IMG/VR virus record: IMGVR_UViG_3300021425_000119
Coordinates: 1 to 30,229 of that record
Reading direction: 5' to 3' (one strand)
Length of the DNA stretch: 30,229 bases
From: a virus
Below are positions 2,343 through 23,918 of the stretch, in pieces (position 1 is the first letter of the stretch; the number at the start of each line of letters is the position of its first letter). The notes beneath the pieces were generated by a model. It searched no databases. It was given only the letters and a program-made list of their open reading frames with translations, and was not told the DNA's origin. The translations under genes and the position numbers were made by a program.

Positions 2343-3022
2343 TGTTTAATCATATTGATATTAGTCTCCCTCAACTTGAGAGGGAGACTATTGATGGGGT
2401 GAGATATTACTCTGTCCCCGACGAAAATGAACTCCTTCGACTGGTCTCCATCACTTCTGTGACCAGTCATTTTAATAAAGAAATCTTTGTTAATTGGAGA
2501 AAAAAGGTTGGCAATGAAGAGGCAGATCGTATCACAAAGGCTGCCACAAGTCGTGGTACGGATATGCATACTCTCACTGAGCATTTTTTAAAGAATGAAG
2601 AACTTCCAAAGGTTCAACCAATTTCCGATTTTCTCTTCAAGATTTCTAAAAATAAACTCAAGAATATAAATAATATTCATGCCCTAGAAGGTTCCCTATA
2701 TAGTAAGCAGTTAGGTATTGCTGGAACCGTCGATTGTATTGCAGAATACGAGGGTGAGTTAGCAATAATTGACTTTAAAACTTCAAAGAAACCAAAACCA
2801 CGAGAGTGGATCGAACACTATTTTGTACAGTGCATGGCATATGGTTGTATGCTGTACGAACTGACTGGTATTTCAGTCAAAAAACTTGTAATCATTATGG
2901 CTTGTGAAAATGGAGAATGCGTCGTCTATGAAGAACGAGACAAATCAAAGTACATCAAACTTCTTACCGAATATATTAGAAAGTTTGTTAGAGATAAACT
3001 GGAACTCTATGGAACCGAATAA
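2342..3022 (+). CDS. PD-(D/E)XK exonuclease, RecB/Cas4-type
   Basis: 226 residues. The nuclease core is visible in order: a histidine in GTDMHTLTEHF (H76), E116 in ALEGSLYS, D131 in GTVDCIAE, D144 and K146 in IIDFKTSK, and Q163/Y167 in VQCMAYGCM. This is the RecB-family arrangement of two-metal nucleases. In T4-like cyanophages a protein of this kind sits beside phoH and is annotated as an exonuclease; a role in DNA processing or host DNA degradation is likely. The ATG overlaps the last base of phoH. The downstream gp33 gene starts inside its 3' end (3009), pointing to coupled translation. Confidence 0.85.
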   Translation: MFNHIDISLPQLERETIDGVRYYSVPDENELLRLVSITSVTSHFNKEIFVNWRKKVGNEEADRITKAATSRGTDMHTLTEHFLKNEELPKVQPISDFLFKISKNKLKNINNIHALEGSLYSKQLGIAGTVDCIAEYEGELAIIDFKTSKKPKPREWIEHYFVQCMAYGCMLYELTGISVKKLVIIMACENGECVVYEERDKSKYIKLLTEYIRKFVRDKLELYGTE

Positions 3023-3269
3023 AGAACTAGAACAAGCAATTCAAAGTAAATTTCTAACACCTTCTAAGTTTGCGATTGAAATTGAGAAAATTGTTGCCGA
3101 AGAAAAAATCAATTACATTGATGCAATCGTACACTATTGCGAACTCAATGAACTTGAGGTGGAATCGGTAACGAAACTTGTATCCAAACCACTGAAAGAA
3201 AAACTGAAGTGGGATGCTACGAGACTTAACTTTATGAAACGAACTTCGAGAGCAAAACTACCACTATGA
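3009..3269 (+). CDS. 33: Late transcription coactivator gp33
   Basis: 86 residues, against 112 in T4. In T4, gp33 binds the beta-flap of host RNA polymerase and, with gp55, tethers it to the gp45 sliding clamp to activate late promoters. The block FAIEIEKIVAEEKINYIDAI (residues 16-35) aligns with T4 gp33's IIEKMVEEFGMSYLEA, and the KPLKEKLKWDATRLNFM part aligns with the following helices. The C-terminus ends RAKLPL, a hydrophobic tail where T4 gp33 has its clamp-binding LDFLL. The ATG at 3009, inside the exonuclease gene, was chosen over 2904, which would give out-of-frame sequence from that gene. It ends in an ATGA overlap. The late promoters marked here would depend on it. Confidence 0.8.
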   Translation: MEPNKELEQAIQSKFLTPSKFAIEIEKIVAEEKINYIDAIVHYCELNELEVESVTKLVSKPLKEKLKWDATRLNFMKRTSRAKLPL

Positions 3270-22540: not shown

Positions 22541-22569
22541 TTGACACCCTTGCTCGGATGCCCTATAAT
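22541..22569 (+). promoter_or_regulatory. Consensus sigma70-type promoter
   Basis: TTGACA (22541-22546), 17 bases, TATAAT (22564-22569): a perfect match in both boxes and spacing. Start near 22576, placing it ahead of the ATG at 22596 and past an unused ATG at 22572. It would drive the accessory island early in infection. Confidence 0.88.
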
Positions 22570-22797: not shown

Positions 22798-22815
22798 ATC
22801 AACTGTGGAACATTG

Positions 22816-22992
22816 ATGGAAGTTTTTACTTTACAGGAATGGGAAGAAAATTTTGATGCATTATTCAAAAGAGTTGAAGACGGGGAGACAATAGGAGTGG
22901 TCAGAAAAGACGGAAAAGCAGCAGTGTTTATGCCTGCTGATGAGGCAGATTTTCTGCGAATACACACAACAGACAATAACGACGCTGATTGA
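22816..22992 (+). CDS. Phd/YefM-type antitoxin-like protein
   Basis: 58 residues. MEVFTLQEWEENFDALFKRV, then EDGETIGVVRKDGKAAVFMP follows the Phd/YefM N-terminal fold: strand, helix over the F-x-x-x-x-x-x-V-x-x-G-E motif, then two strands ending V-x-x-P. The short polar end lacks a long toxin-binding tail. Phd proteins neutralise Doc-type toxins and repress their own promoter. No toxin gene follows: the next 150 bases hold a tRNA-like element and the HNH control region. It may block a host toxin or act only as a regulator; both are inference. This ORF is short and easily missed. Confidence 0.65.
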   Translation: MEVFTLQEWEENFDALFKRVEDGETIGVVRKDGKAAVFMPADEADFLRIHTTDNNDAD

Positions 22993-23000
22993 TGTATTCT

Positions 23001-23088
23001 GCTCGTGAGACTTGGTAGTCAGAGAGGTTTTATAAACCTTTTCCGCCAGATTAGCGGCTTTGAGGCGGATCGTAACCGCCCACGAGTA
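23001..23088 (+). ncRNA. tRNA-like element, possibly a decayed tRNA
   Basis: Stems appear in tRNA order: acceptor GCTCGTG (23001-23007)/CACGAGT (23081-23087) with one G-T pair, a short D-like arm (23010-23019), an anticodon-like arm GAGGT-TTTATAA-ACCTT (23024-23040), a variable-arm-like CCGC/GCGG (23043-23057), and a T-like arm GGCGG-ATCGTAA-CCGCC (23064-23080) abutting the acceptor. The D-loop is too short and the T-loop lacks TTC. Its acceptor resembles that of tRNA-CAT at 23629-23701 (both begin GCTCGT). The GCGG/CCGC pieces could also refold, so function is doubtful. Confidence 0.35.
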
Positions 23089-23089
23089 T

Positions 23090-23144
23090 TGTGTTTTGAA
23101 ACAACTTATGATATAAATAATATTATAGAATGTTTCAAAACACA
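23090..23144 (+). promoter_or_regulatory. Hairpin over HNH start region with late promoter in its loop
   Basis: A perfect 14-bp inverted repeat, TGTGTTTTGAAACA (23090-23103) and TGTTTCAAAACACA (23131-23144), ends two bases before the HNH ATG. Its 27-base loop contains TATAAATA (23112-23119), an exact T4 late box. A late transcript would begin near 23126 and lack the left arm, freeing the translation start; read-through transcripts would fold and hide it. T4 uses this design for I-TevI and some late genes. Confidence 0.72.
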
Positions 23145-23146
23145 TA

Positions 23147-23638
23147 ATGAAAACCCACACAATAATCTGCAAAAATTGCTCAAATCCCTTTGAAGCACAA
23201 GATAAAAGGAGAAAGTTTTGCAGTAGAAGTTGTGCAGCAATTTTAAACAACTCTCATCATCCAAAAAATCCTAAAAAAGGAAAGTGTAAAGATTGTCAAA
23301 AATCTATTTGGTCTAATAGAGTTCGATGTATGGATTGTCATCTTGTATGGAAAAGTGGACTAAATTTTGATGATAAAACTCTTGATGAAATGAAACTTCT
23401 TGGAAAAACTCCATCAAACATCTATGGTGCTGTTAGATGGAGAGCAAGAAAAGTTGCTAAACTTGAAGGATGGACAGAATGCTGCAAATGTGGTTATAAT
23501 AAGCATATAGAGGTTGCTCACAAAAAAGCAATTTCAGATTTTGAAGGCAACACTCTTGTCTCCATAATCAATGCTAAAGAAAATTTAATGCCTTTATGTC
23601 CCAACTGTCATTGGGAATTTGATAACTTGCTCGTTTAG
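23147..23638 (+). CDS. Freestanding HNH homing endonuclease
   Basis: 163 residues. Two N-terminal cysteine clusters, C8/C11/C25/C29 and C47/C50/C61/C64, look like zinc fingers for DNA binding. A linker leads to the HNH domain: C112-x2-C115, H125 (EVAHKKAI), N146 (KENLMPLC), C151-x2-C154 and H155, the metal-cutting beta-beta-alpha motif. Such enzymes cut a target site in related phages lacking the gene and spread by recombination; tRNA clusters are frequent homes. The last codons and TAG stop form the first 10 bases of tRNA-CAT. No Shine-Dalgarno is visible; expression appears governed by the upstream hairpin. Confidence 0.88.
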   Translation: MKTHTIICKNCSNPFEAQDKRRKFCSRSCAAILNNSHHPKNPKKGKCKDCQKSIWSNRVRCMDCHLVWKSGLNFDDKTLDEMKLLGKTPSNIYGAVRWRARKVAKLEGWTECCKCGYNKHIEVAHKKAISDFEGNTLVSIINAKENLMPLCPNCHWEFDNLLV

Positions 23639-23701
23639 CAATCTGTCGAATGCAATCGTCTCATAAACGATCGAAGGTGGGTTAGATTCCCACAACGAGC
23701 A
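23629..23701 (+). tRNA. tRNA with CAT anticodon, unusual D- and T-loops
   Basis: 73 nt. Acceptor GCTCGTT/AACGAGC, T8 A9, D stem GCA/TGC, anticodon stem ATCGT/ACGAT with loop CTCATAA (anticodon CAT), 5-base variable loop, and T stem GTGGG/CCCAC, all perfectly paired. The D-loop ATCTGTCGAA has no GG pair, and the T-loop is TTAGATT instead of TTC-x-A-x-x. CAT could read Met or, if lysidine-modified, Ile AUA. The 5' end overlaps the HNH stop. CCA is not encoded. Confidence 0.82.
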
Positions 23702-23702
23702 C

Positions 23703-23731
23703 TTGACCATAATGACTCCTTGAGTTATAAT
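23703..23731 (+). promoter_or_regulatory. Sigma70-type promoter for tRNA-Val/Leu
   Basis: TTGACC (23703-23708), 17 bases, TATAAT (23726-23731). The start near 23738 is about 3 bases before tRNA-Val. It begins right after tRNA-CAT and could also transcribe the hydrolase gene downstream. Confidence 0.72.
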
Positions 23732-23740
23732 GGTCCCATC

Positions 23741-23812
23741 GGGTGAATAGCTCAGAGGTAGAGCATCTCCTTTACACGGAGGCGGTCGGGGGTTCGATCC
23801 CCTCTTCACCCA
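23741..23812 (+). tRNA. tRNA-Val (TAC)
   Basis: 72 nt. Acceptor GGGTGAA/TTCACCC, D arm AGCTCAGAGGTAGAGC, anticodon loop TTTACAC (anticodon TAC, codons GUA/GUN), T arm GGGGG-TTCGATC-CCCTC-type with the standard TTCGA, discriminator A. CC follows but no complete CCA. Confidence 0.95.
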
Positions 23813-23816
23813 CCTT

Positions 23817-23901
23817 GCGAGTATGGTGGAATCGGTAGACACACCAGACTTAAAATCTGTTGACCATCACGGTCGTGGGAGTTCAAGTCTCCCTACTCGC
23901 A
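23817..23901 (+). tRNA. tRNA-Leu (TAA)
   Basis: 85 nt class II tRNA. Acceptor GCGAGTA/TACTCGC, D loop with GG (AATCGGTAGA), anticodon loop CTTAAAA (anticodon TAA), long variable arm (TGACCATCACGGTCG), T arm GGGAG-TTCAAGT-CTCCC, discriminator A. Four bases separate it from tRNA-Val. UUA is a frequent leucine codon in AT-rich phage genes. Confidence 0.95.
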
Positions 23902-23918
23902 CTATATAAAAATAAAAT

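Follow-up and report, generated by a model that had tools for sequence, protein, structure and literature searches.

What does a perfect hairpin, with a late-promoter box between its arms, do directly in front of a free-standing HNH endonuclease gene in a cyanophage tRNA cluster? The initial annotation of the window (the whole 30,229-base stretch of viral DNA analysed here) read this arrangement as a T4-style translational switch that restricts the endonuclease to late expression. We put at about 80% the probability that the hairpin, with the promoter inside it, locks the expression of a mobile HNH gene sitting between tRNA-Ile and tRNA-Met. As a design, the T4-type switch is well supported by RNA-folding predictions and by comparison of sequences.

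Anatomy and predicted masking of the HNH start

The HNH gene (23147–23638, plus strand) encodes a protein of 163 amino acids with a Cys-rich N-terminal part and a C-terminal HNH region, confirmed as such by a match to Pfam HNH_2 (PF13391; E 3.8e-5, above the cut-off). The tRNA cluster was likewise correctly annotated, with Ile(TAT), Met(CAT), Val and Leu genes at 23000–23902. The tRNA-Ile (TAT) gene (23000–23089, plus strand) ends immediately 5′ of the hairpin, and the first 10 bases of the tRNA-Met (CAT) gene (23629–23702, plus strand) are the last of the HNH gene, whose TAG stop codon lies inside the tRNA. The window carries T4-type genes for a helicase loader, a single-strand DNA binding protein and baseplate proteins, and a gp33-like late promoter transcriptional regulator (3009–3269, plus strand; phrog_254, E 3.6e-29), a similarity that marks the phage as one with T4-type late-transcription machinery. 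The late motif NATAAATA has been reported for S-PM2, with g55 homologues in all cyanophages then sequenced and g33 and g45 homologues in cyanomyoviruses (PMC2984593). Upstream, a candidate sigma-70-like promoter by consensus match (TTGACA-17-TATAAT, 12/12; 22541–22569, plus strand) precedes a DUF7294 gene, a Phd-like gene and tRNA-Ile, and is a possible source of early read-through RNA across the tRNA. The second of these genes, just 5′ of tRNA-Ile (22813–22992), is Phd/YefM antitoxin-like (Pfam E 4.9e-6, below the cut-off); phage S-SKS1 has an annotated Phd-like antitoxin at the matching place, and a toxin partner for the window gene was not noted.

The hairpin is a perfect 14-bp inverted repeat at exactly the coordinates first given for it. 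Its left arm occupies 23090–23103 and its right arm 23131–23144 (both plus strand), the latter spanning −16 to −3 of the HNH start and ending two bases (TA) before the ATG at 23147. An exact TATAAATA box lies between the arms (23112–23119, plus strand), as annotated; it does not lie free in the loop, since part of it pairs in an inner stem (23107–23127, plus strand) which, with the outer arms, forms a 25-bp repeat of 84% identity (23090–23114/23120–23144). In T4, the late transcript begins at the sixth base after the promoter box. From this spacing we infer a late transcription start at 23125 (plus strand), so placed that the transcript would lack the left arm and retain the right arm in its leader. 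No consensus Shine–Dalgarno sequence is visible in the window HNH leader and none is sequestered in the stem; thus the masked element is the start region, which the right arm covers, rather than a known ribosome binding site. Masking of a Shine–Dalgarno sequence is not essential to such switches, the wording in PMC3014915 being that the Shine–Dalgarno and/or AUG is sequestered. The predicted late leader also contains a mini-ORF of five codons (ATG TTT CAA AAC ACA TAA; 23130–23147), the stop of which overlaps the HNH start (TAATGA). This mini-ORF is absent from the closely related locus L003; a TAATGA-type stop/start overlap is also given for T4 nrdA/mobE (PMC2988022).

Masking was expressed as the cost of keeping positions −18 to +6 open, and the late RNA was modelled with its 5′ end six bases past the box. 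Opening cost 16.2 kcal/mol in the read-through RNA and 2.0 kcal/mol in the late RNA, a prediction that agrees with the proposal that loss of the left arm frees the start region. Masking was lost for tested 5′ ends from 23112 to 23134 (0.5–2.4 kcal/mol) and retained for those at 23090 or farther upstream (13–17 kcal/mol). The loss is therefore robust to the exact transcript start assumed.

The box itself occurs at chance level, with two copies of TATAAATA in the window against 1.86 expected and at least two in 58 of 100 shuffles. The hairpin stands out: its RNA fold has a z-score of −6.3, with none of 200 shuffles equally stable, and it ranks first of the 10 inverted-repeat pairs listed by a window scan. 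No other perfect 14-mer inverted repeat with a spacer of up to 60 bases occurs in the window, and such repeats arose in just 2 of 300 dinucleotide shuffles. Its arm score of 15 exceeds those of all 54 control ORF starts (maximum 8.5), and the HNH start region has the highest opening cost among 29 window positions tested, two of which (1310 and 1578) turned out not to be start codons. We also considered a transposon-like unit with terminal inverted repeats and rejected it, as the arm sequence has no copy in the record beyond the hairpin itself.

Relatives of the HNH gene and an empty site

A scan of viral contigs gave 68 loci related to the window HNH gene (family 1), of which the upstream regions of 31, plus a few further, were viewed. 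The layout is common to seven distinct sequences: the window, L003, L004/L005, L006, L007/L009, L008 and L010/L011. The best DNA matches of L007 and L010 are Synechococcus phages, and those of L004 are marine virus and Synechococcus phage records. The HNH proteins of L003 and L004/L005 are 88% and 71% identical to that of the window. The arms of L004 and L010 are unrelated to the window's and still enclose TATAAATA, so it is pairing, rather than sequence, that has been conserved. Between the window and L003, both partners are exchanged in two stem pairs (A-U to G-C); a further pair is new, one wobble is replaced by a standard pair and three pairs are lost. In the seven sequences overall, predicted opening costs fall from 10.5–20.5 to 0.4–5.6 kcal/mol (L003, 11.6 to 0.4; L004, 10.5 to 4.3; L010, 16.5 to 4.7; L006–L008, 14.2–20.5 to 5.1–5.6). 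Ungapped arms outscore all 54 control starts in five of the seven distinct loci; L006 and L007, with 7 and 3 controls equally good when G-U pairs are ignored, fall short because their arms lean on such pairs. G-U and A-C mismatches are equally frequent in family 1 arms (four each), and strand-specific evidence accordingly rests on other families, described below.

L006–L008 have a TATAAT-type, sigma-70-like −10 box at the place of the promoter and no TATAAATA there; in L007 the promoter matches TTGACA-17-TATAAT at 12/12 positions. The right arm of these three hairpins covers a Shine–Dalgarno-like GGAGG. As the lock is kept while the class of promoter changes, late-only expression, as first proposed, is weakened, and the comparison supports translation only from the gene's own promoter as the conserved principle. 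The switch itself, with its predicted masking, its exchanged arms and the empty site described below, is well supported as a design.

That the repeat arose by chance in A-T rich spacer and has no function would fit the chance frequency of the box and the family 1 members in which no hairpin precedes the HNH gene (L018, L021, L031 and L059). The shuffles, the control starts and the recurrence of the layout with unrelated arms make this explanation extremely unlikely.

Relatives with and without the HNH gene were compared, as proposed with the first description of the locus. In S-SKS1, tRNA-Ile (2184–2274 of L002) and tRNA-Met (from 2275) are directly adjacent, and the junction contains no hairpin, no box and no HNH gene. 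Since the two tRNAs abut in this empty allele, the insert in the window corresponds to 23090–23628 and the hairpin forms its left end. The same junction bears on whether the hairpin serves the upstream tRNA-Ile, in 3′ end formation or protection from exonucleases, with its position beside the HNH gene being incidental. The hairpin directly follows tRNA-Ile in the window and starts within a few bases of it in L004 and S-SRM01, in favour of such a role. However, S-SKS1 has the tRNA-Ile with neither HNH gene nor hairpin, the L003 hairpin lies about 80 bases from tRNA-Ile and still two bases before the HNH gene, and endonuclease genes of S-SRM01 show the same design with no annotated tRNA alongside. 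We consider a tRNA-Ile function highly unlikely. Family 1 genes overlap a tRNA at 16 of the 68 loci (11 tRNA-Arg(TCT), four tRNA-Met and one tRNA-Lys).

In S-SRM01 the same tRNA-Ile/tRNA-Met junction is occupied by gp048, an HNH gene from another family, and the hairpin that encloses TATAAATA is a different one. ARAGORN places the tRNA-Ile(TAT) at L001:2004–2093 (about 32943–33032 of S-SRM01); this tRNA is not among the entries from 33489 onward in the tRNA table of the genome paper (PMC8557907). A scan for relatives of gp048 (family 2) gave 53 loci. With S-SRM01 gp048 added and L124, where the match ends inside the gene, omitted, the HNH stop overlaps the start of tRNA-Met in 51 of 53 loci, with the same 9-base offset in 49; the loci without a called tRNA are L082 and L088. 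In six loci (L088, L092, L095, L096, L097 and L098) the 5′ half of a tRNA-Met lies directly before the family 2 leader. Among the matches listed, a 26-base half of this type opens an intact tRNA-Met-like sequence in 80/80 cases, and in L095, L097 and L098 the intact tRNA-Met is followed by a tRNA 3′ end that matches the half. We infer from these sequences that an HNH gene with a complete tRNA-Met was inserted into a resident tRNA-Met, the middle of which was replaced. The orphan halves lie around 1930–1980, with 3′ remnants after 2484 in L095, L097 and L098, and L088 has an apparent hybrid tRNA that ARAGORN does not call.

In L092, L096, L097 and L098, the tRNA-Met half is predicted to form the left arm, paired to the start region of the HNH gene (z −2.6 to −3.3), with opening costs in L092, L097 and L098 of 11.4–12.6 against 3.5–4.4. 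Typical members of family 2 mask little (L074, 5.6/3.3; L114, 5.2/5.6): many of their hairpins are situated largely 5′ of the predicted start, so that the case for masking is weak there. Family 2 arms contain 21 G-U against 3 A-C mismatches, an excess that, given the close relationship of the sequences, does not count as independent evidence.

Masked endonuclease genes in other phages

In the S-SRM01 genome, 26 genes with TATAAATA starting 17–47 bases upstream were put in order of how much predicted masking they lose. The first ten (gp066, gp091, gp297, gp253, gp075, gp114, gp320, gp030, gp048 and gp207) all look like homing endonucleases: nine are named in the record as endonucleases or nuclease-associated or, for gp114, match NUMOD3, and gp091, with no Pfam match, is GIY-YIG-like by eye only. 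None of the 12 other boxed genes reached the top ten (Fisher p 1.9e-4; Mann-Whitney p 0.0015; gene classes were assigned after the ranking was seen). Four boxed endonuclease-type genes mask little (gp152, 2.7; gp322, 2.3; gp203, 1.2; gp225, 1.1). As a control, the start-opening measure recovers the known T4 cases e, 26 and I-TevII, and soc weakly (2.1). It also picks T4 53 and alt, for which we know of no report of masking. S-CRM01 gave no strong case among seven genes (best difference 5.3). This measure was adopted after two others. Free duplex energy across the box separated poorly at −20 kcal/mol (4/35 in S-SRM01 against 146/2239 permuted boxes), with no excess in S-CRM01 or T4. A contiguous-helix score of −16 kcal/mol or lower was reached by 7/35 S-SRM01 boxes against 51/2239, and by 0/10 in S-CRM01 and 0/32 in T4.

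Some annotations in S-SRM01 may need revision. For gp320, an endonuclease within psbA (L130:7739–7773), the hairpin fits only the second ATG (207773), suggesting that the annotated start is too early; the same is suggested for gp075 (51348) and gp297 (192520). S-SRM01 gp114, B23 gp45 and Sf-CH5_200, annotated as ‘translation initiation factor 2’, are related to gp075, and gp114 has six NUMOD3 stretches; all three are probably misnamed endonucleases.

Of 251 loci with relatives of gp075, 80 were kept, and the box lies 8–45 bases before the chosen start in 70; in several of the ten uncounted loci the box, or a form of it changed at one base, lies at another spacing. All 70 boxed leaders are predicted to be masked (difference at least 5 kcal/mol, median 11.6). 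They comprise 57 distinct leaders and 46 different pairs of arms. Left flanks scored a median of 11.5 in their own leaders, against 6.0 when swapped between loci, and 47 of the 57 exceeded the 95th percentile of the swaps. The arms, defined without G-U pairs, contain 14 G-U against 1 A-C (binomial p 0.0005, arms treated as independent), as would be expected if the sense RNA is what pairs. Because the unrelated arm pairs number in the dozens, the sequences themselves reveal selection on pairing. Relatives of gp075 occur in seven of the phage records, and the lock is present in B23, Sf-CH5 and S-B68; none was found beside the relatives in S-N03, ACG-2014f, RN05-S and Acinetobacter SH-Ab 15599. 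Other families gave less: 36 of 52 gp207 loci were examined, of which six had no usable start or flank, 21 were boxless and nine boxed, four of the nine being masked, all with one arm; of the eight gp066 loci examined out of 67, one had no usable start or flank, seven were boxless and none was boxed.

These data bear on whether the repeat is instead a DNA operator, a dyad bound by the endonuclease over its own promoter. The dyad does overlap the promoter, autorepression of this type is described for I-TevI (PMC2988022), and the family 2 right arm AATAGGTGTATGTAT is compact and highly conserved. Against this, the arms of L004 are wholly different at 71% protein identity with pairing kept, and the 46 arm pairs and G-U excess of the gp075 family point to pairing in sense RNA over a DNA palindrome. 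An operator is very unlikely on this evidence.

A terminator-like hairpin lies before the box, within the outer arms, in 52 of the 57 distinct gp075 leaders. Together with the strength and intergenic position of the window hairpin, this raises the possibility of a transcription terminator or attenuator that halts read-through into the HNH gene. The window stem, however, is A-T rich, has no run of T, lacks the character of an intrinsic terminator and was not listed by the terminator scan, so we give this reading only a very small chance. Six sites in S-SRM01 (L126–L130; 18021, 48503, 51314, 56026, 62477 and 192486) have a terminator-like hairpin and late box inside a long-range outer stem, and the same nested leaders precede endonuclease genes in L259–L338. 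Such leaders hold three control layers in about 100 bases, the terminator at 56026 being putative.

Known switches and a proposed working

The design has been described for I-TevI, I-TevII, I-TevIII, segB and Aeh1 mobE, with seg43(25) as an unmasked variant (PMC2988022); the window hairpin, with its expression-lock reading, is therefore a further case. It is not the first free-standing endonuclease so arranged, as Aeh1 mobE (HNH) and T4 segB (in a tRNA region) precede it. Aeh1 mobE is the closer in type: a free-standing HNH gene with a hairpin on the read-through RNA only and a late promoter inside or beside it that frees the start. It differs in lying in nrdA, in having its ribosome binding site masked and in being experimentally supported (PMC3014915), whereas the window site is a tRNA cluster and lacks a visible consensus Shine–Dalgarno sequence. 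Like the window gene, T4 segB codes for a free-standing homing endonuclease within a tRNA cluster, where a late promoter and RNA structure have been predicted (PMC2988022). Unlike the window gene it is GIY-YIG and adjoins tRNA-Arg without overlap (71253–71918 and 71173–71247), while the window HNH gene enters tRNA-Met. As an HNH gene without the GIY-YIG feature, the window gene would work like segB and is not a segB. T4 I-TevI, I-TevII, I-TevIII, e and soc share the masked early and released late RNA; the first three, unlike the window gene, are intron-borne, and e and soc are structural and lysis genes.

The GIY-YIG/NUMOD3-type leaders of S-SRM01, B23, Sf-CH5 and S-B68 have the same order of arm, late box (a one-base variant in S-B68), complementary arm and start codon. 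Unlike the window, most nest a terminator-like hairpin between left arm and box. The words ‘promoter’ and ‘hairpin’ do not occur in the main text of the S-SRM01 genome paper (PMC8557907). Titles and abstract openings, with subscription journals largely uncovered, contained no description of such a leader from a cyanophage, or of one with a nested terminator. Two features may be new variants of the design: the leaders with a nested terminator and the tRNA-Met cassette.

As a working model of the lock, RNA reading through from upstream, for example from the 22541–22569 promoter through tRNA-Ile, would carry both arms. It would fold, hide the start region and leave the endonuclease unmade. RNA initiated at the late box inside the hairpin would begin near 23125, lack the left arm and be translated. 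In the standard view the reason for such a lock would be timing. A second reason could be that it keeps ribosomes translating the HNH gene out of the tRNA-Met precursor. For I-TevI, Gibb and Edgell found that the hairpin keeps ribosomes off the td intron, as reported in PMC3014915.

A broader reading, which we offer tentatively and hold to be somewhat doubtful, is that mobile endonucleases of T4-like cyanophages share a general leader of left arm, often terminator, own promoter, right arm and start codon. The promoter could be late or sigma-70-like; irrespective of timing, the rule would be translation from the gene's own promoter only. In HNH cassettes linked to a tRNA, with the stop codon falling within the following tRNA, the lock might, by analogy, also shield the tRNA precursor from ribosomes, and the second HNH family would enter tRNA-Met genes with a complete tRNA-Met and could reuse the broken half as left arm.

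About ten T4-family genes have been named for the switch (PMC2988022), to which candidate cases among cyanophage endonucleases of several families can now be added. The design offers a simple way to recognise controlled selfish genes from their sequence, and poses the question of whether the lock serves to time the enzyme or to shield neighbouring RNA, tRNA or intron, from ribosomes. Endonucleases of phage tRNA clusters also matter in practice: in T6, SegB-driven amplification of the tRNA region lets the phage escape Septu (PMC13096335).

A further feature lies within the HNH coding sequence, where a sigma-70-like promoter match (11/12; 23471–23500) is directed at tRNA-Met. L003 has both of its hexamers too. 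The match might serve to maintain tRNA-Met expression once the insertion had occurred, or could reflect mere coding constraint.
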